Assembly: GCA_902763865.1 (NCBI GenBank)
Contig: CACWTR010000005.1
Span: 22,862 to 86,861 of the forward strand
Direction: 5' to 3'
DNA length: 64,000 nt
From: an uncultured Bacteroidales bacterium
GTDB lineage: Bacteria; Bacteroidota; Bacteroidia; Bacteroidales; Bacteroidaceae
The translations under genes and the position numbers were made by a program. Positions 8,601-43,944 of the stretch are shown here, in pieces (the first letter of the stretch is position 1; each line of letters starts with the position of its first letter). The notes under the pieces were generated by a model. That model was not told the origin of the DNA. It saw nothing but the letters and a program-made list of their open reading frames with translations, and searched no databases.

Positions 8601-9332
8601 GAGGACGTGGCAGCCAAAGCAAGCTACATCAGCGATGCAGAGGGAGTTGTAGCCTTCCAGAACGGCAGTGTCCGCGGCCTCGACGAAGGAGAGACGAGCG
8701 TCCGCATCATCTACACCGACCCCGTAGGAGGCGAGCTGACAGCCAGCCTGAACGTCCGCTCCTCGTTCTTCCCCTTCGGAGCCGAGTACATCAACACCTC
8801 GCTCTTCTCCGAAGGCACCTACACCGAAAGCAGCCGTATCTTCAAGCCCGGACAGTACGGACAGATGGGATGGGAATATCCCAATGGTGCCGACATGTCG
8901 GGCTACAGGTATCTCGTCCTGAACATGAAGCGCATCGCCAGTGCCGCACACCTCAACATCTTCACCAGCGGCAGCATCTGGGGCGATTGCTGTGCTACGC
9001 CCGACTTCGGCTCCAAGAAGCAAGTGGTCATCGACCTCCAGGCGGCCCGCTACACCAGCGGCGACCGGACAGGCGAACCGCTCGACACGAAAAACGTCCG
9101 CATCGTCTCCTTCTGGTCCAACAAGGTCTCCATCGTCGTCGATGACATGTACCTGACCAACAACGACGACTTCTCCCGTCCCATCCCCGACGGCCTGGAG
9201 AGCATCGAGTCCTCACCCGTGGGCGAGGAAATCAGCTACGACATAAGTGGTCGCCGCATCGCAGCGCCCCGTAGCGGCCTCACCATCATCCGTCGTTCCG
9301 ACGGCACGGTCCGCAAAGTCATCCGTAAGTGA
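5682..9332 (+). CDS. Secreted GH5-GH43 bifunctional glycanase
   Basis: A 1216-residue exported protein with two catalytic modules. After a signal peptide (residues 1-19, ending ISAQ) comes a GH5-like TIM barrel, about 25-425. It has the acid/base glutamate in ELANEP (E212) and the nucleophile in ITEVDW (E315). A GH43-like propeller follows from about 433, with the base aspartate in DFPDPDVIRV (D443), a pKa-modulating aspartate in YDPGMLFDGG (D552) and the acid in EGSHLYK (E597). Next is a beta-sandwich resembling GH43 subfamily 12 C-terminal domains (about 770-950), then a Big2-like domain and a final module. Likely substrates are arabinoxylan or a similar branched glycan, since the gene diverges from the arabinose operon. 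Exact specificity cannot be read from sequence. Confidence 0.92.
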   Translation: MRKLILFAWAVLFFAGISAQVEKPLPSLHVEGKWLCDSHGNHVVLHGVMDTPNMFFNDWKWGSPWDGSGTGYNATGAQKCLNYFEKIFKGLEQANCDVFRLHLDPAWTNDPSASYVYAGSEGQAEGTDGEADISKFNPTRLRSFLSSLYWPLIQKAMNHKMYVVVRPPGVCPGSIKVGDYYNDYLMTVWDIFTQNANIKKYAGQISIELANEPVSLRNAEGKDDPKALHDFFQPIVDKIRANGFSGIIWAPGTGWQANYTSYESYPIEGPNIGYAVHDYCGWYGCSDNTPDPQSKINQFRKQVPVVDTAPIIITEVDWSPTNPDAEGHYNEHGEWVQPNYGTWATGSTSKWGKAFKTMLDHYGNISMTLSGTGCLIDRDILLQTGRVEPAFGGLEEACGKACMDWYADFYTKDWAHPDYKDVSLSDQGNGRYKNPLIFADFPDPDVIRVGDTYYMVSTTMHHFPGATILKSADLLNWEYCAQPLEQLSAKDRYSLLGGENAYAAGMWACSMTWHNGKFYLLINGNDAGGFVLTATDPEGRWEKKALPRIYYDPGMLFDGGKVYVACGIGNIQMCELDENFNLVREQNVIRDKEGLEGSHLYKIGDYYYIYATYGGWPSGQAVFRSKNIFGPYEERMLVEKVINGSPNTVHQGALVETQTGEWWTILQQDLGALGRMPNLQPVKWEDGWPVVGNKGVPYTTYTSPKTGTASPRTGLPTNDNFRSYPLGMQWQWNHNPDDGAWSLFERQGWLRLRASGSANRLTQARNTLTQRIFAFHDKASQPSTGTIRLDIRNLQEGDRAGICILQDPYAAIAVEVKDGRRQLVWWQDTLRTDNSFTPTQQTIPTDADSIIYLRAAVTYGTGKTQFYYSPDGKTFTALGDQTTLRYSLTVFVGARFGLFCYNTQNGSNGYADFDWFSTESSFDESTYFPADFEGYSKDMLTAQKLELATNEMEVMVGSSKPLKLTATFADGHTEDVAAKASYISDAEGVVAFQNGSVRGLDEGETSVRIIYTDPVGGELTASLNVRSSFFPFGAEYINTSLFSEGTYTESSRIFKPGQYGQMGWEYPNGADMSGYRYLVLNMKRIASAAHLNIFTSGSIWGDCCATPDFGSKKQVVIDLQAARYTSGDRTGEPLDTKNVRIVSFWSNKVSIVVDDMYLTNNDDFSRPIPDGLESIESSPVGEEISYDISGRRIAAPRSGLTIIRRSDGTVRKVIRK

Positions 9333-9347
9333 GAACACCGGCACCCC

Positions 9348-9398
9348 ACAGGCGTGCTCCGCGCACAAGAAACAGGCGCGGAGCACGCCTGTTTCTTT
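9348..9398 (+). terminator. Strong rho-independent terminator
   Basis: A perfect 17-bp inverted repeat (left arm 9348-9364, right arm 9376-9392, loop of 11) rich in G+C is followed by TTCTTTG. It begins 15 bp after the stop of the GH5-GH43 gene and would end that transcript. Confidence 0.85.
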
Positions 9399-9476
9399 GT
9401 GGGTTTTCCGAATATGACAACTTCCAAAGAGGCCAGGCATCGGCAGACAAACCTCAGCCTCCACGTCATAAAGTTA

Positions 9477-9556
9477 TTTTCAAAGCTTGAAAATATATTT
9501 TCAAACTTTGAAAATTAATTTTCACGACGTGAAAATATATTTTCATGACGTGAAAA
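9477..9556. repeat. 80-bp array of four 17-bp palindromes, copy 1
   Basis: Four palindromic units of the form TTTTCAnnnnnTGAAAA lie at 9477-9493, 9498-9514, 9519-9535 and 9540-9556. They are separated by TATA, TTAA and TATA, so the period is exactly 21 bp. The same 80-bp design recurs at 54343-54422, and both copies are preceded by a CCTCCACG-containing stretch and followed by TAGTTTT. The intergenic stretch 9333-9660 otherwise holds only the terminator. Confidence 0.9.
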
Positions 9557-9660
9557 TAGTTTTATGCCGCGTCGATATGACTAATTATTCTAAATTTTCT
9601 ATCAGTTTTCTTGTGAGAACCAATTAACATTTCAGAGTTACTCACTAACCCGAAAAAGAG

Positions 9661-10488
9661 TTAATTTTTATTCTTCAACATCTTCTTCTCTTCACTTGCC
9701 AAACGTCTCTCTACTTTCTTAACATCCTCTGCTGCCGGCAGGTTCTCTGGAACGATGCCACGTTCAGTAAGCATCTTGCGAACAGCAGCATTGTTGTCAA
9801 CATGTTCTTTGGTGATAGCTGTTTCACCCTGCAGGTCTTTTGTCTGTACGTTGACGCTTGTCATCTCGGCAGCAAAGTCCTTAGCCTTGATGCTGATGGT
9901 GGGAAGAAAATCTGCGAGAGGACGACTTTGTGGTATGCCCATTTTTCGCTTCATCATGTTGGTTCTGAGTCGAAAAAGTGCCTGGTCACCTTTGGAACGG
10001 ATAACGGCAAAGGTCTGGTCGTTCACGCCACGCTCATATAGGATGCCAGAAAGTTTGCGCTCTGTTTCCTGCAACTTGGTGCGGGCCTTGATTCGCTCTA
10101 CCTCCAGCAGCCGCTGCTCTATTAACTCTGCTTTGCGCGTTTGCACTGCAAAGTAGGTTTGCGCAAATGCTATCTGCGGTTTTCGGGGGTCTCCGTTCTG
10201 AGCTACGAGATAGCAGGCATAACGGGTGAGCATGATGTCTTCCACCTCTCGCTCTGCTCCGGATCCGATGGTAACCATTTTATTGACGTCAATAAAATGG
10301 TCGTTTATCAACTGTCCCACGTTCACACAGGCTTCTTTCGCTTTATTAATCACTTTGCAGAAGTTCTGCCAAAGGCTGTATCCAAACAGATTTTGCATTT
10401 CTCTTGCACTCCAGCATTCCGTGTCATCTATTGTGCAAACAGCGTCCTCATAGCTCTTGAATAGAGCAAGTATTTCTTCTTGTTTCAT
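9661..10488 (-). CDS. dinD: DNA damage-inducible protein D (DinD-like)
   Basis: A 275-residue protein that fits DinD in length and motif order. The N-terminal half ([18 protein letters not shown], then [14 protein letters not shown]-like residues) is a BRO-N-type DNA-binding domain. The second half has [17 protein letters not shown] and [19 protein letters not shown], typical of DinD. In E. coli the family is SOS-induced and inhibits RecA filament functions; the role here is inferred. No LexA-type operator is obvious upstream. The gene stands alone, flanked by a palindrome array and a 489-bp non-coding stretch, and its reading frame contains a perfect 28-bp palindrome. Confidence 0.9.
10274..10301. 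repeat. Perfect 28-bp palindrome inside dinD
   Basis: The 14-base half ACCATTTTATTGAC is followed directly by its exact reverse complement. The centre is GACGTC. Because of the symmetry the peptide HFIDVNKMV is read on both strands. Confidence 0.9.
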
Positions 10489-36913: not shown

Positions 36914-37062
36914 TATGTTCCTGTGTTTTCTATTTGCAAAATTACACATAAAAACCGATATGTCGAAATTAAATGAATTACTTTAGGGATAAAAAAACAA
37001 GAAAAGAGCCTCTTTTTCCTAAAATTGTTGGTATAGGCTGCGATACTTTGACGAGTTTTGTA

Positions 37063-37070
37063 TATCTTTG
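37063..37070 (+). promoter_or_regulatory. Promoter -7 box reading into the CRISPR array
   Basis: TATCTTTG followed by C. Transcription would begin near 37077, about 65 nt before the first repeat, and run through the array toward iscB. A 7-bp stem (TTGAAAT, loop CAAA, ATTTCAA at 37074-37091) lies at the expected transcript start. The box is a good match, but the -33 element is unclear. Confidence 0.5.
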
Positions 37071-37139
37071 CACTTGAAATCAAAATTTCAATCACTATAA
37101 TCATTACGCCTATGAGAACAGACAATAAAATTAATGACT

Positions 37140-37502
37140 AATGTTTTTACCCACAAAAAACGCTGCCACAAACAGCATATACATCTACCCCGCTTTCACG
37201 TCAAGCATTGTGTTTACCCACAAAAATGCTGGCACTAACAGCGCAGCCTCCGAGCGTCACGAACTAAGCCCATTGTGTTTACCCACAAAAATGCTGGCAC
37301 AAACAGCGTTACCTTGTGCTCAACAGTAGCGCATTGATTGTGTTTACCCACAAAAATGCTGGCACTAACAGCGGCGGCAGCGACAATCTCCACATCGACC
37401 TATTGTGTTTACCCACAAAAATGCTGGCACTAACAGCCGTCATGCACATACAAACAATTAGCGAGTATTGTGTTTACCCACAAAAATGCTGGCACTAACA
37501 GC
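37140..37502 (+). CRISPR. CRISPR array next to iscB: 6 repeats, 5 spacers
   Basis: Five repeats of 36 bp (37207-37242, 37272-37307, 37337-37372, 37402-37437, 37467-37502) begin ATTGTGTTTACCC and end CACTAACAGC. They are identical except for one base in the second. A degenerate first copy lies at 37140-37176. The spacers (37177-37206, 37243-37271, 37308-37336, 37373-37401, 37438-37466) are 29-30 bp and unrelated to each other. Each repeat can fold into two small hairpins (TTGTG with CACAA, and GCTG with CAGC). The degenerate copy usually marks the old, leader-distal end, so the young end would face iscB. No cas gene is in the window. Confidence 0.93.
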
Positions 37503-37597
37503 CTATAGTGAGTAAGCCGATTAGCCTCAGTCATTTAAACATCATATCGAGAATATGAATATTGAATGAACTACGTTAGAAGTGAATGTATAGGCAC

Positions 37598-37746
37598 CTT
37601 GAAATAGTCGTCCAAGTTTCAAGCTCTGCGGTCAGTGATTAAAAGGAGCGAAAGCAACGGTGTTGCTGACAAGAAACCACTTTATAACATTGGCGATGGG
37701 CGCATAACGGGCATTAGCCCGACTTACAGTATTATAAAGAATAGTC
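37598..37746 (+). ncRNA. Putative omega RNA scaffold upstream of iscB
   Basis: The non-coding interval between the array and iscB is strongly structured. A first stem is CTTGAAA (37598-37604) with TTTCAAG (37617-37623). GTCAG (37631-37635) pairs with CTGAC (37666-37670) around a GC-GAAA-GC tetraloop hairpin. CTTTATAA (37680-37687) pairs with TTATAAAG (37732-37739) and encloses CGGGC-ATTA-GCCCG (37708-37721). Position, strand and length fit the omega RNAs that guide IscB, whose targeting segment lies 5' of the scaffold. The limits are estimates. Fold and function were not tested. Confidence 0.7.
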
Positions 37747-37750
37747 TCAT

Positions 37751-39004
37751 ATGGTATACGTATTAAATAAGAACAGTCAACCCTTGATGCCAACAGAGCG
37801 TCATGGCAAGGTTCGACGTATGCTTCGTGACGGCAAAGCTCACGTTGTACGACTTGAACCTTTTACCATTCAGTTGGACTATTCTTCTGGAGAAACAATC
37901 CAGGAAATATCACTCGGCATAGATGCTGGGAGCAAACACATAGGAGTTTCTGCTACGACTAAGAAGAAAGAACTCTTAGCTATTCAGGTTGAAGAACGAA
38001 CGGATATAGTGGAGTTGTTGTCAACACGAAGGGAAGCGCGTCGAACTCGCCGCAATCGCAAGTTACGACACCGTGCGGCACGATTTGACAACCGCCGCCG
38101 CAAGGAAGGTTGGTTGACACCAAGTTCAGAAAACAGGGTAGTGGCACATCTGCGTATCATTCATCTTGTTAATTCCATACTTCCTATAGCAAAGACAACT
38201 ATAGAAGTTGCACAATTTGATTCACAAAAAATTAAGAATGATAAGATTTCTGGTGTTGAATATCAGCAAGGAGAACAGCTTGGTTTCTGGAACGTGAGGG
38301 AATATGTACTTGCAAGGGATGGTCATGTATGCCAGCATTGTAAAGGCAAGTCAAAGGACAAGATACTGAATGTCCACCACATTGAAGGCAGAAAGACAGG
38401 AAGTAATGCCCCTAACAATCTTATCACGCTGTGTAAGACTTGCCACAAAGCATGCCATGATAGGGAAATAACCCTCAAAGTGCGAAGAGGTACAAGTCTG
38501 CGTGATGCTGCTGCAATGTCTATTATGCGATGGGAAGTCTATAATCGTGCTAAACAAGAATTCAAAAACGTGCATTTGACATACGGATATGTTACAAAGC
38601 ATACTCGTATTCATAATAACATAGCCAAAACCCATTGTGCCGATGCACTTTGTATTTCAGGTAATGTGGGAGCTGAACGCCTCTCATGGTTTTATGGAGT
38701 TAGGCTGACAAGACGGCATAACCGTTCGTTGCATTTGTTCAAGCCAAAGAAAGGTGGAATTCGCCAAGGTAATTTGGCTCCTCACTGGATAGGCAAATCA
38801 CGTCTACAACAATATGACTATGTGGAGTGGAATGGTCAGAGGGCTTTTGTTTCCGGTAGTTCGAATGGCAGACCATATCTAAAAAACTTTGACGATAAGT
38901 ATATCATGACACCCAAAGCATCCGTCAACGCTAAGACGGTAAAGTTCATCAGGCGCAAGCGGGGGAGTATGATAATTGAGCAATTACTAAAAGACAGCAT
39001 TTGA
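37751..39004 (+). CDS. iscB: IscB, RNA-guided RuvC-HNH nuclease
   Basis: A 417-residue IscB. In order: PLMP motif (residues 11-14), RuvC-I LGIDAGSKHIG with D58, an arginine-rich bridge helix (about 93-119), RuvC-II with E152 in IEVAQFD, and an HNH domain (about 185-240). The HNH domain has H209/H210, N223 and zinc cysteines C194, C197, C228 and C231. RuvC-III is HCADAL with H295 and D298, and a C-terminal domain follows. All catalytic residues are present, so it should cut both DNA strands under guide RNA control. Known IscBs are ancestors of Cas9 and usually travel with IS200/IS605 elements; no tnpA is seen here. It lies 248 bp after a CRISPR array and 4 bp before a HEPN gene. Confidence 0.96.
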   Translation: MVYVLNKNSQPLMPTERHGKVRRMLRDGKAHVVRLEPFTIQLDYSSGETIQEISLGIDAGSKHIGVSATTKKKELLAIQVEERTDIVELLSTRREARRTRRNRKLRHRAARFDNRRRKEGWLTPSSENRVVAHLRIIHLVNSILPIAKTTIEVAQFDSQKIKNDKISGVEYQQGEQLGFWNVREYVLARDGHVCQHCKGKSKDKILNVHHIEGRKTGSNAPNNLITLCKTCHKACHDREITLKVRRGTSLRDAAAMSIMRWEVYNRAKQEFKNVHLTYGYVTKHTRIHNNIAKTHCADALCISGNVGAERLSWFYGVRLTRRHNRSLHLFKPKKGGIRQGNLAPHWIGKSRLQQYDYVEWNGQRAFVSGSSNGRPYLKNFDDKYIMTPKASVNAKTVKFIRRKRGSMIIEQLLKDSI

Positions 39005-39008
39005 AGCA

Positions 39009-40496
39009 ATGAATACTATTAAACCTACAGACGCATACAAGTCTTTCCTTCACTTTATAAATCTTATTGAGAGCGACAATCCCACTTACACGATAGATTT
39101 CTTAAAAAAAGAAAGTTCGTTTTCTGTCGATGCCAAATTCAAAATTGTAGATAATGGAGATTACGAGCTGTCTTTCTCGACAAAAGAAGTCATTCCTCCC
39201 CAAACATTTCACAACTTCCTTACCATTATACAATCTGAATTGTATAACATTGTGTTTGAGAATATCTATAACCAGCAAGTACAAATAAAGATAAGTAACT
39301 CTGAAAGTTCTGTAGAATATCGAATAACGACAAAATCCTTTCGCAGTACGATAGAAGACACTTTGGATGATACTTATTTTTGTTCATTTTTTAAATACGA
39401 CCATAATGTGTTTAATCCAGATAAAACATGTATTTTAGGTTTCAGCCACAAACCTATTGAGATAAAAATAGAAGAGTGTGAACTAATAATCTTTTGGGGT
39501 GACAAGACAGCAACAGATGGCACTACTAAAGATGAAAGATACCTAATGTTTTTTTCCAAGAACAAAACTAAACAAACAACATTCAACAGATTGGTTGATG
39601 CAATTAGAGTTACATGGGGATTAATTTCGGGGTATTATATAGGAAAAAATGTGTATTATTTATCATGTAAGCCGGAATTAGGTTTGAGTGAATTGAACTT
39701 TTCCTATAATAACTTACAAGAGGAAATTATTACATATCGTGGGATGTTAGATTCAAAATTGTACGATAACATACCTGAAGATGAAACGCATCTTACGATT
39801 GTTGAGTTTGAACGCTTAGTCACTCTTTTTTATAACAACGATTCTTTTCATAGGGCTGGATTATTTCTAATTCACGCAAGCAAAGATGTTGGCTTATCAA
39901 AAGGTGGAATGGCTGCTGTAGCATTAGAAACAATTACAGGAGAAATAGAAAGAAATGTAAACGCGAAGAAGAGAGGTGATACAAACGAGTTTAAATTGCC
40001 TGAAGCATTAAATAAAGAACTAGAAAATGTTATTACTCGATTCAAAGAGGCAAATAAAATAACCGATAAGCAACAACAACACTACTTAAAGAAATTGGAG
40101 AATTTCTCAACTCCTTTTAACTCAGATAAACTATCCAACCCGTTTAGACTACTTAAAATTACATTGTCTAAAACAGAAAAAGGCATCATTGAAAATAGAA
40201 ACAAAATACTGCACGGCAGTTTACCTAAGAAGGGCAGAGGCTTAGAGTTCGTTGCTAATCTAAATGATGACGAACTTGTATTTTACGTATCCAATAAGTT
40301 AATTATGCTTTGTACGATGTTGTTATTCAGAATGGCCGACAAAAATATCGACAAACGCATCAATGACTGGGGGGTAACCATTATTGTTAAGAAACACTTG
40401 ATTGAGAAGGGAAAATATATAGGGAATGGCGGAATAAAACATCGAATGATATCTGAAATGAATCCAATGGAAGATTCACCAGAATGGCTGGCATAG
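39009..40496 (+). CDS. HEPN-motif protein co-oriented with iscB
   Basis: A 495-residue protein not recognised as a named family. Residues 1-280 are beta-rich and resemble the N-terminal part of ApeA-like proteins only in general character. The C-terminal half is helical and contains ENRNKILHG, giving R397-N398-x3-H402. This fits the RNxxxH ribonuclease motif of HEPN domains, many of which are RNases in abortive-infection and CRISPR systems. The ATG is 4 bp after the iscB stop, so the two genes are almost certainly co-transcribed and perhaps coupled. DNA is strongly AT-rich compared with the housekeeping genes. A role as an effector activated with IscB is speculation. Confidence 0.8.
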   Translation: MNTIKPTDAYKSFLHFINLIESDNPTYTIDFLKKESSFSVDAKFKIVDNGDYELSFSTKEVIPPQTFHNFLTIIQSELYNIVFENIYNQQVQIKISNSESSVEYRITTKSFRSTIEDTLDDTYFCSFFKYDHNVFNPDKTCILGFSHKPIEIKIEECELIIFWGDKTATDGTTKDERYLMFFSKNKTKQTTFNRLVDAIRVTWGLISGYYIGKNVYYLSCKPELGLSELNFSYNNLQEEIITYRGMLDSKLYDNIPEDETHLTIVEFERLVTLFYNNDSFHRAGLFLIHASKDVGLSKGGMAAVALETITGEIERNVNAKKRGDTNEFKLPEALNKELENVITRFKEANKITDKQQQHYLKKLENFSTPFNSDKLSNPFRLLKITLSKTEKGIIENRNKILHGSLPKKGRGLEFVANLNDDELVFYVSNKLIMLCTMLLFRMADKNIDKRINDWGVTIIVKKHLIEKGKYIGNGGIKHRMISEMNPMEDSPEWLA

Positions 40497-40621
40497 TCAA
40501 TGCTCACATCAGAAACCTTGTTAGAAACAATGGTTTTAATGGCGTATCATTCTCTGAAGCCGTAATAAATTCAGAGGCTTATAAATTAGATATCCAACCT
40601 TATAATTTTCCTAATCAATAA
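40484..40621 (+). CDS. Possible 45-residue ORF overlapping the HEPN gene end
   Basis: An ATG at 40484 opens a 45-codon frame that overlaps the HEPN gene by 13 bp and ends at TAA 40619-40621. The peptide (MAGIVNAHIRNLVRNNGFNG...) has no recognisable motif. The overlap resembles translational coupling, but so short a frame could be chance. The next gene on the minus strand ends 7 bp away. Confidence 0.35.
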   Translation: MAGIVNAHIRNLVRNNGFNGVSFSEAVINSEAYKLDIQPYNFPNQ

Positions 40622-40627
40622 CTTATA

Positions 40628-41656
40628 TCATTCATCAATGTGTAACGTGATAGCATGATACTCTTTCAGGTACTTTACCAAAGGCTCGTAAGCCGATAAT
40701 GAACGAGATTTTCGAGGAACGACCTTTATCAAGTCGGCCAATGACATGCTATAAGTACCAGCATCATAGAACGAGCCGAAGAATTTCTTAAGAGCTTTGA
40801 TGGACTTCAAATAGTTTTTATTGATGACGCTCTTCTCCATGAGAAGTCTTAGTTTTATTTCCAGTTTCATTGACTGATCATCACTAGCAACATCTTCAAT
40901 AAAACCAGCAATTGGTATTCTCCAGTATTGGTTAGCGATAAACGCATCATCTATGTATCCAATAACAGAATTCATGTCAGTACGTATTGCAACTTGATTC
41001 TTTTTGTAAAGCTCCCCAAATGTATCGAATGTTACGGTATGGCCGATATTCCGCTTTATAAAATCTGAATATCTTTTATACTGTTCGTTGGAACAAATAG
41101 TTGATAATATCAAATCAGTTTGATATGGAAGAGTGTATGTGTTATGAAATTCCTGCAAATATGATATGTTGACTCTTTCAAAACCCATGCATGAACAGTC
41201 AAGAGTTGCCCAATAGTGCTTACTACAAGTCATAATCCAACTTACGGTTTCTGTGTCATATCGTCTTATGTAACCAAGTTTACGACCAAGCATGCGGATA
41301 ACGATGGCGTTGGGGTCATACTCATTCCATGGTTCATATTCTAAATCCAGCACTTGACCATTATAATATTTGTCGCCCAAAAGATACAGGTCGTTACGAT
41401 AAAAGTGGAAATCTATTCCTGCAATATCGAATGAATCTTTGCGTTCAACAACAAAATCTCGTTTGAACTGCCTTTTGGAAGGGGTAATAGGTTGAAGATA
41501 CTTATGATTAAATAAAAGGCCTGTTTCTATTCCTTCTAATAGATGTGCATCCATTATTTTAGGGTCTTTTTCGTACCACATAATAATATAATTAAGGGGA
41601 TTTGCTACTATTTGAAACTGATGGTTATAACCTATTAACTTTAATTCACCAATCAA
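40628..41656 (-). CDS. HIRAN-domain protein
   Basis: A 342-residue protein. Residues about 72-135 match a HIRAN domain: FDIAGIDFHFYRN, then LDLEYEPWNEYDPNAIVI and LGRKLGYIRRYD. HIRAN domains bind DNA ends or stalled replication forks and are often found in repair or phage-related proteins. The rest is helical and of unknown function; there is no helicase or nuclease motif. The ATG overlaps the preceding alpha-CTD-like gene by 11 bp, so they form a unit with the two small genes upstream. It converges with the iscB-HEPN transcript. Confidence 0.8.
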   Translation of the reverse strand: MIGELKLIGYNHQFQIVANPLNYIIMWYEKDPKIMDAHLLEGIETGLLFNHKYLQPITPSKRQFKRDFVVERKDSFDIAGIDFHFYRNDLYLLGDKYYNGQVLDLEYEPWNEYDPNAIVIRMLGRKLGYIRRYDTETVSWIMTCSKHYWATLDCSCMGFERVNISYLQEFHNTYTLPYQTDLILSTICSNEQYKRYSDFIKRNIGHTVTFDTFGELYKKNQVAIRTDMNSVIGYIDDAFIANQYWRIPIAGFIEDVASDDQSMKLEIKLRLLMEKSVINKNYLKSIKALKKFFGSFYDAGTYSMSLADLIKVVPRKSRSLSAYEPLVKYLKEYHAITLHIDE

Positions 41657-42896: not shown

Positions 42897-43374
42897 TATT
42901 AATTATGAGTTAAATCACTTATTATTTTGGAATGAAAAAACGTGAGCAATCTACTTCGCTTACGTTTTCCGAGGCATTGGGGATGGCCTTTGTAGCTTAA
43001 ACGAGTAAATGCCGGAACAATCGACTTAAGTTCTTCGGCTCTAGCCTCAGGCGCAGGCGGAACTTCGTCTGTAGCCTCAGGCTCAAGCGGTACTTCGTCT
43101 GCCCTCCGTCGCGAATGGGGACCCGCCTTACCCTCCGTCGCCATAAGAGATATGTCTCCCCTCATCGGGCACGGAAAAACATTCAGTCTTTCCTCTGAAG
43201 GCCTTCTTCGCCCTCTGCGGGGCCGCCATGACATTCAGTCATGGCTCTTCGACCCCGTTCGCCCCAATTGTCAGAAACAAGAATCAAAAGTGGATGTCCA
43301 GTCTTATGTCCTATTATCTTTTATCTGTCCATCGGTTTTTCAGTTTTGTGATTCTACATTATATACTATATATA
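42897..43374. other. 478-bp stretch without a convincing gene; contains a 30-bp tandem duplication
   Basis: A 30-bp unit starting TAGCCTCAGGC is repeated directly at 43042-43071 and 43072-43101 with three changes. A minus-strand frame of 111 codons (42899-43234) covers the repeats, but its product is low-complexity and lacks a recognisable domain, so I do not call it a gene. Confidence 0.6.
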
Positions 43375-43608
43375 CTATGCGGCATGCCCCATCTCGTAAA
43401 GCCTTTCGGGGGCAATGTCAGCACCGTTCTTCCAGAAGATGGTCTGGTCGAGGCCGAACTGGACGAACTCGTTCTTGTCGCGCAGTTCCTCAAAAGCAGG
43501 ATATGAGAGCAGAGGTGTGAGGTCAACCTTGCGGCGCTCGCCCGTGCTGAACGTACAGAGCAACGTGTAGTCACCCAAATACTCTACATCTGTAATCGTC
43601 AGTAACAT
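43375..43608 (-). CDS. DUF2442 domain protein
   Basis: A 77-residue protein with the DUF2442 pattern: ITDVEYLGDYTLLCTFSTGE, a DLTPLL strand, and FWKNGADIAPERLYE at the end. DUF2442 proteins commonly sit beside DUF4160 proteins and are suspected to form toxin-antitoxin-like pairs. The biochemical role is not established. It lies 81 bp downstream of the DUF4160 gene on the same strand. Confidence 0.85.
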   Translation of the reverse strand: MLLTITDVEYLGDYTLLCTFSTGERRKVDLTPLLSYPAFEELRDKNEFVQFGLDQTIFWKNGADIAPERLYEMGHAA

Positions 43609-43689: not shown

Positions 43690-43944
43690 TCACGACTCGG
43701 CAAAATTGAAACAAGTTTCATTTTGCACTCGCTGCTCCATCGGTTCCATCAGCTCTGCCTCGTGCTCGTCGATGAAGTCGTTGATAATCTTAACCGACTT
43801 GGAGCGGGCCTTACCCTCAATCACACGGTCTTGGATGGTGATAGAGAAATTGTCTGTACCGCTCCGCACATGGATGTGCGGCGGATTATGGTCAAAGGCG
43901 TAGATGTAAATCAGGATGCCCTGTATGATGAATATCGAACCCAT
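43690..43944 (-). CDS. DUF4160 domain protein
   Basis: An 84-residue protein with the DUF4160 core FDHNPPHIHVRSG, then a helix rich in Lys and Glu. It precedes the DUF2442 gene on the same strand, the usual arrangement of this pair, and may be its partner in a toxin-antitoxin-like system. That role is inferred from family context only. Confidence 0.85.
   Translation of the reverse strand: MGSIFIIQGILIYIYAFDHNPPHIHVRSGTDNFSITIQDRVIEGKARSKSVKIINDFIDEHEAELMEPMEQRVQNETCFNFAES

Follow-up and report, generated by a model that had tools for sequence, protein, structure and literature searches.

A CRISPR array adjoining the putative omega RNA and gene of an IscB nuclease in an uncultured Bacteroidales bacterium

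A CRISPR (clustered regularly interspaced short palindromic repeats) array, a putative omega RNA of the HEARO type and an intact iscB gene follow one another on the forward strand of a stretch of DNA of 64,000 nucleotides (nt) from an uncultured Bacteroidales bacterium (contig CACWTR010000005.1 of assembly GCA_902763865.1), hereafter called the window. IscB is an RNA-guided DNA cutter that is thought to be the ancestor of Cas9. The locus is best explained as a CRISPR-associated IscB without a nearby transposase, in which the 5′ arm of the first stem of the omega RNA (P1) and the guide preceding it have been multiplied into an array, one copy of which sits on the scaffold, and we consider this explanation probable. 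The last repeat adjoins the scaffold in the window and in two further loci, L006 in a metagenome-assembled genome (MAG) of Prevotella from sheep abomasum and L027 in G012, one of 139 genomes of the genus, so that array, omega RNA and IscB appear as one unit in all three. Judging from L006, the bacterium of the window is probably related to Prevotella.

The array and its junction with the omega RNA

The array (37139–37502) comprises six repeats and five spacers, and all the spacers are different. There is no doubt that it is real, since five 36-nt repeats follow each other at a single period: R1 (37207–37242), R2 (37272–37307), R3 (37337–37372), R4 (37402–37437) and R5 (37467–37502) start 65 nt apart four times in succession, and four of them are identical while R2 carries one mismatch. 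They are preceded by a divergent, promoter-proximal repeat of 38 nt, R0 (37139–37176). The spacers are S0 (37177–37206, 30 nt) and, with 29 nt each, S1 (37243–37271), S2 (37308–37336), S3 (37373–37401) and S4 (37438–37466). Both the at least three near-identical repeats and the unique spacers of even length that define a CRISPR array are present. An earlier note on the window, made by a model from the sequence, had described a 36/30 array with six repeats and five unique spacers; these counts stand, but the array is really of the 36/29–30 type, with R0 measuring 38 nt.

R5 runs without a gap into the omega RNA scaffold (37503–37730, 3′ end estimated), which is followed by iscB (37751–39004), so the array does lie on the iscB strand directly upstream of the gene. 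The Rfam HEARO model (RF02033) matches positions 37470–37708 with an expectation (E) value of 1.2e-14 and 73.1 bits, below its gathering score of 83, which suggests that the structured non-coding region noticed earlier between array and gene is the omega RNA. The match sets in 3 nt into the last repeat, and the corresponding one in L006 5 nt into it. An anti-repeat (37512–37521), the putative 3′ arm of P1, begins 9 nt beyond the last repeat and consists of the ten bases before a conserved UAGCC. It pairs with nucleotides 1–11 of the repeat, with one bulged U, and all ten anchored pairs are formed, a result that 16 of 200000 shuffled repeats and 5 of 18284 sampled positions of the window attain. 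The first base of the repeat pairs with the base just before UAGCC and would be the outermost base of P1, at the border between guide and scaffold. Consistently, the 3′ arm of P1 ends right before UAGCC, in other letters, in all six non-array relatives examined (L007, L010, L012, L031, L032 and L033). The HEARO overlap, the pairing up to UAGCC and the position of P1 in the relatives make it most likely that the last repeat, of which nucleotides 1–11 are invariant in the three array loci, is the 5′ arm of P1, with its anti-repeat in the scaffold. S4, lying 5′ of this repeat and the scaffold, is the presumed guide of the omega RNA.

The product of iscB, a predicted RNA-guided endonuclease of 417 amino acids (aa), scores 349.9 bits against the NCBIfam equivalog profile guided_IscB (NF040563; cut-off 175), and its Pfam RRXRR and HNH domains are above cut-off. 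D58, E152, H209/H210 and D298, the catalytic residues of the RuvC and HNH sites, align with solved IscB chains, in keeping with the intact gene described earlier. The ratio of non-synonymous to synonymous substitution rates (dN/dS) is 0.11 between the window and L006 and 0.04 between L006 and L027 (dS 2.75), and the comparison of the window with L027 is saturated. The scaffold is 89–98% identical between the loci, though synonymous sites are saturated or nearly so in comparisons with L027. Judged from these values, the array-linked IscB is maintained under purifying selection.

The repeats also carry a sign of polarity. R0, the first repeat, is divergent in all three loci and has ATG near its start, where all nine full repeats have TTG. 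The full repeats are nearly uniform within the window (four of five identical) and L027 (three of three), and they differ between loci. Units copied from the promoter-proximal repeat would resemble R0, and the units resemble the scaffold-proximal repeat instead, suggesting that the array grows or is homogenised from its omega-RNA end; the newest spacer would then be the guide of a single-molecule omega RNA. R2 of the window has one base in common with R0, so a simple age order of the units is not clean. The spacer lengths of 29–30 nt in both the window and L027 suggest a ruler.

Recurrence of the arrangement

The earlier note had asked whether the same repeat stands beside other iscB genes, and the arrangement does recur at L006 and L027, whose IscB proteins are 87% and 83% identical to that of the window (the two values being those of the two relatives). 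The array of L006 consists of R0, one A-rich spacer of 28 nt and one full repeat, and that of L027 consists of R0 and three identical full repeats with spacers of 30, 29 and 30 nt. Leader, divergent R0, repeats and scaffold are common to the three loci, and none of the nine spacers is. DNA homology between the window and the other two loci extends from the leader to 13–17 nt before the iscB stop codon; outside this cassette, the 9.2 kb compared for L006 and the 11.7 kb surrounding L027 yield only two short matching stretches, both in L006. In a tree of 14 rows, the three array-linked IscB proteins form one clade (support 99/97), outside which fall L033, a record of a phage collection with no array detected, and L030 of G405, whose contig stops short of the upstream DNA, so that it is not scorable for an array.

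L006 was the only one of 20 iscB loci of a genome collection to show the arrangement, and it was seen by alignment. A simple array detector missed its two unlike repeats and may likewise miss other two-repeat arrays, and some of the 20 loci have less than 300 nt of upstream DNA. Among the 139 genomes of the genus, a close IscB occurs only in the genome of the window and in G012, and two others have weak matches in the HNH region. Genomes with a match at the E limit number three of 399 in the family, one of 393 in the order and one of 395 in the phylum, the genome of the window being counted each time. The 22-nt core of the repeat had no match in the viral scan.

Other iscB loci of the survey have features of their own. 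Thirteen of the 20 collection loci (L009, L010 and L015–L025), many of them partial, come from one Clostridiales MAG (Nc350_bin65), which is a large expansion of IscB. On a 132-kb IMG/VR contig (L031, 1988–2945), a HEARO RNA and iscB are immediately preceded by a ROOL RNA and a tRNA. In L029 (1942–2200, genome G095), near a weak HNH match rather than a close IscB, a 20-nt word occurs three times at a spacing of about 79 nt; this may be a further CRISPR array or else a tandem repeat.

cas genes in the hosts and targets of the spacers

The array was said to stand without cas genes, and this holds in the searches made. Cas1 had no match in the genome of the window (84% complete), in G012 (91% complete) or in the genome of L006, and no match to the Cas9 profile exceeded the cut-off in the three hosts, nor in 14 control genomes, so that the reach of this profile is unproven; neither Cas2 nor other effectors were included in the search. 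One of the two weak Cas9-profile matches in G012 is iscB itself. A cas9 gene with cas1–cas2, as in type II systems, was found in none of the hosts. The earlier note had named a cas locus with the same repeat elsewhere in the genome as the finding that would assign the array to another system; in the 84% complete genome, the repeat core with up to three mismatches occurs only in the present array. This result, the interpretation of the repeat as the omega RNA's 5′ arm and the two further loci together support the claim that the array belongs to IscB. Of the 139 genus genomes, 44 carry Cas1, and several of these have 36-nt repeats that recur roughly every 65 nt, the same geometry as here. The absence of Cas1 from three hosts is therefore unsurprising by itself, and a donor of Cas1–Cas2 is near at hand in the genus.

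The search for protospacers in phage, plasmid and Bacteroidales genomes, which had been proposed as a check, came back empty. The whole array of the window had no match in phages and plasmids at E values up to 10. The scan of IMG/VR, which covered the window spacers alone and used their exact 3′ ends (the last 15 nt of S1 and the last 17 nt of each of the other four), found such ends in 28 contigs for S1, four for S0, two for S2, four for S3 and two for S4. The best extensions reached 20 of 29 nt (S1), 20 of 30 (S0), 22 of 29 (S2), 22 of 29 (S3) and 20 of 29 (S4) and are read as chance. The array matched 88 of the 139 genus genomes at E values up to 1, with no more than five candidates scored in each; once the array itself and G012 are set aside, the matches have E values of 0.025 or worse and are also read as chance. 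The array of L027 matched 21 plasmid records (best E value 0.2, partly on the repeat) and 12 phage records (3 or worse). The spacer of L006 was compared with its own locus only. All nine spacers match their own loci no better than shuffled sequences do, with a lowest p of 0.155.

Leader, partner genes and surroundings

A TAnnTTTG element (37063–37070), similar to the −7 consensus of Bacteroidota promoters, is kept ahead of the array in the window, L006 and L027. The promoter proposed there earlier may correspond to this element, but there is no clear −33 box; a sigma-70-like site (37074–37101) is also present, and such sites are about as frequent in shuffled sequences. Between promoter and array lies a short reading frame of nine codons (37112–37141, forward strand), the stop of which overlaps the first repeat. 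A leader frame starting with ATGAGAA is found in all three array loci, with differing lengths.

Each of the three array loci has a gene on the iscB strand just behind iscB, at a distance of 4, 14 or 14 nt, and it is a different gene in each. In the window it encodes a protein of 495 aa (39009–40496), beginning 4 nt after iscB, with a HEPN-like C-terminal region marked by RNxxLHG. The downstream HEPN gene claimed earlier has fair if weak backing: the protein itself has only unrelated Pfam matches below cut-off, its distant homologue L117 (G134) matches HEPN_Apea with an E value of 0.0048, also below cut-off, and RNxxLHG is invariant in all three aligned proteins. Searches of PDB sequences with the protein and with the profile of the three proteins found nothing, and its predicted structure, with a mean predicted local distance difference test score (pLDDT) of 35, was of no use. 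Relatives were found on one plasmid and in one other of the 139 genus genomes, and none in phages or the viral scan; the homologue on the plasmid, from Chryseobacterium, has two Abi family genes and a gene for a restriction endonuclease in its vicinity. The partner in L027 has a CAP12/Pycsar TIR domain (138 bits against a cut-off of 24.7) and is the PADLOC candidate PDC-S35, and that in L006 is Trypco2-like (21.8 bits, below the cut-off of 24.2). In a control set of ten intact non-array relatives (L007–L013 and L031–L033), a frame of at least 50 codons, assigned mechanically rather than called as a gene, begins within 20 nt of the iscB stop codon in three (L009, L032 and L033), and hence proximity by itself is a weak indication. 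In L030, a frame of 61 aa follows 6 nt behind iscB. A different putative defence gene close behind each array-linked iscB is possibly new. No account of such partner genes appears in the titles or abstract openings among the matches listed in the literature on IscB.

The iscB locus is AT-rich, with a G+C content of 33–46% in 1-kb steps over 36.0–43.5 kb, compared with 54% in the window. No transposase domain was found in the ten window frames scanned between 35.2 and 44 kb, four of which had no domain match at all, and ends of an IS200/IS605-type transposon are visible only as the limits of homology. Two of the three array loci have a convergent gene with a HIRAN domain beyond the partner of iscB, at 40628–41656 on the reverse strand of the window, where it also matches PADLOC PDC-M03B, and at 9129–10451 on the reverse strand of L107, where the HIRAN match is below the Pfam cut-off. 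Further along the window is a pair of DUF2442 and DUF4160 genes (43375–43608 and 43690–43944, both on the reverse strand), which is possibly toxin–antitoxin-like. Two stretches of about 87 bp (42926–43012 and 43262–43348) are common with L006 (8415–8643) in the same orientation, and the DNA between them has relatives elsewhere in G012; they may mark an island border or be a small dispersed repeat.

Proposed mechanism and alternative explanations

In the mechanism that we propose, a single transcript from the leader would carry the array, the omega RNA, iscB and the partner gene. By homology, S4, R5 and the scaffold would together form a ready single-guide omega RNA for IscB. Alternatively, the lone anti-repeat may pair with one or another of the upstream repeats, in cis or following processing, thereby admitting S0–S3 as further guides, and such pairing would amount to a proto form of the arrangement of CRISPR RNA and trans-activating CRISPR RNA (crRNA:tracrRNA). 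IscB would cut matching foreign DNA through its HNH and RuvC sites, whose residues are in place. As the searches of these hosts yielded no Cas1, spacers would have to be acquired through Cas1–Cas2 from elsewhere or by recombination, and new units may arise from the scaffold-proximal repeat, given the divergent R0 and the locus-specific full repeats. An array-guided IscB, in which several spacers would be used as guides, is a plausible possibility.

Several results weigh against this explanation. None of the three array loci has a HEARO match that reaches the gathering score, and in L027 the match starts 18 nt upstream of the last repeat. By folding energy, the inner four pairs of P1 have probabilities of 0.25–0.31 in the window, 0.03–0.04 in L006 and 0.40–0.50 in L027, and the remaining six do not exceed about 0.01. 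In the window and L006, the fold of lowest energy has a hairpin within the repeat instead, and nucleotides 2–7 of the repeat pair with the 3′ end of the scaffold in L027 and in co-folding of the window sequences. When taken as a separate molecule, the repeat does not surpass shuffled repeats in its pairing with the scaffold in any of the three loci, and P1 is invariant among them, so that it has no support from covariation there. L006 has a single A-rich spacer of 28 nt, no protospacer beyond chance emerged from any spacer search, and the genome of the window is only 84% complete.

Some of these points favour a simpler account, to which we give somewhat less than an even chance, in which only the scaffold-proximal spacer guides and the upstream units are remnants of former guides that persist because nothing removes them. 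Guide and scaffold lie on one RNA in known IscB systems, good pairing between the scaffold and a separate repeat is not predicted, and L006 has its one A-rich spacer. The identity of four of the five window repeats, the fifth being one base off, and of all three repeats in L027 points to recent growth or upkeep instead, but recent growth alone would also yield such identity. It is unlikely that IscB is a homing or transposon-like nuclease here, the spacers being traces of former target flanks and the cassette having spread without a role in defence. IscB is typical of mobile elements, and the cassette stands in otherwise different surroundings in three genomes, with homology ending shortly before the iscB stop codon; however, the scanned frames hold no transposase domain, spacer length is even, and no spacer resembles its own surroundings better than shuffled sequences do. 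The same comparison of all nine spacers with their own loci speaks against a guard of the CreTA type, in which IscB with an array guide would repress a downstream toxin-like gene. A putative toxic effector does follow within 4–14 nt of each array-linked iscB, but we regard such a guard as highly improbable. That an orphan array of an ordinary cas system came to lie beside iscB by chance is largely refuted and retains hardly any weight: Cas1 occurs in the genus, in some genomes with 36-nt repeats of the same period, but the present repeat reads as a part of the omega RNA, recurs with iscB in all three loci and was not found elsewhere in its own genome.

The CRISPR-associated IscB may have a further side. 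The locus could be a composite immune operon, in which a cas-less, array-guided IscB is co-expressed with an exchangeable abortive-infection effector, acting jointly with cutting or as a back-up to it, and in which spacers join at the omega-RNA end. This proposal, which we consider doubtful, draws on three loci, with a HEPN-like partner in the window, a CAP12/Pycsar-type TIR partner in G012 and a Trypco2-like partner in L006, and the nature of these partners makes it worth testing; the close frames behind three of the ten non-array relatives led us to lower its odds slightly.

Comparison with known systems

The kind to which these loci belong, CRISPR-associated IscB, is already known, and the present loci are further members of it. 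Such systems are reportedly treated by Altae-Tran et al. in 2021 and, going by its title, by Zhang et al. in Nature Communications in 2025, in keeping with the statement of the earlier note that CRISPR-linked IscBs had been reported. The likeness, an IscB with a linked CRISPR array, is one of description rather than of sequence; partner effector genes and a divergent first repeat are not known to feature in those accounts. A Cas12 CRISPR locus with an OMEGA-IscB (PMC10910872) is similar in having IscB at a locus with a CRISPR array, which there serves Cas12; no Cas12 was found among the window frames scanned, and no Cas12 profile search of the genome was made. Compared with OMEGA IscB/HEARO systems (RF02033), the present locus shares the equivalog score of IscB and a putative HEARO-type omega RNA 5′ of the gene, but the arm of the first stem and the guide have been multiplied into an array, and the score of the RNA is under the gathering score.

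Type II CRISPR-Cas9 systems, mainly II-C, are similar in having the spacer 5′ of the repeat and an anti-repeat in the scaffold RNA, and the 36-nt repeat with a period of 65–66 nt is that of several arrays of the genus. The repeat sequences are not convincingly alike: a comparison with type II-C repeats of the genus, in two orientations and with eight repeats transcribed by hand, one of them wrongly with 33 instead of 36 nt, was equalled by 17 of 2000 shuffles in the forward and 71 of 2000 in the reverse orientation and was not used as evidence. No cas gene is linked to the present array, and the anti-repeat RNA is still joined to it. In all three loci, repeat and anti-repeat are still within one RNA gene beside an IscB of, in the window, 417 aa, and the array locus has the appearance of a living link between the nucleases of jumping genes and CRISPR-Cas9. 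It offers a way to test how a single scaffold could serve many guides and how an array could change its spacers in hosts without detected Cas1. Two features are worth following, namely growth of the array from the omega-RNA end and the exchangeable effector partners, and if the partner genes matter, RNA-guided cutting by IscB would be linked to abortive-infection effectors.

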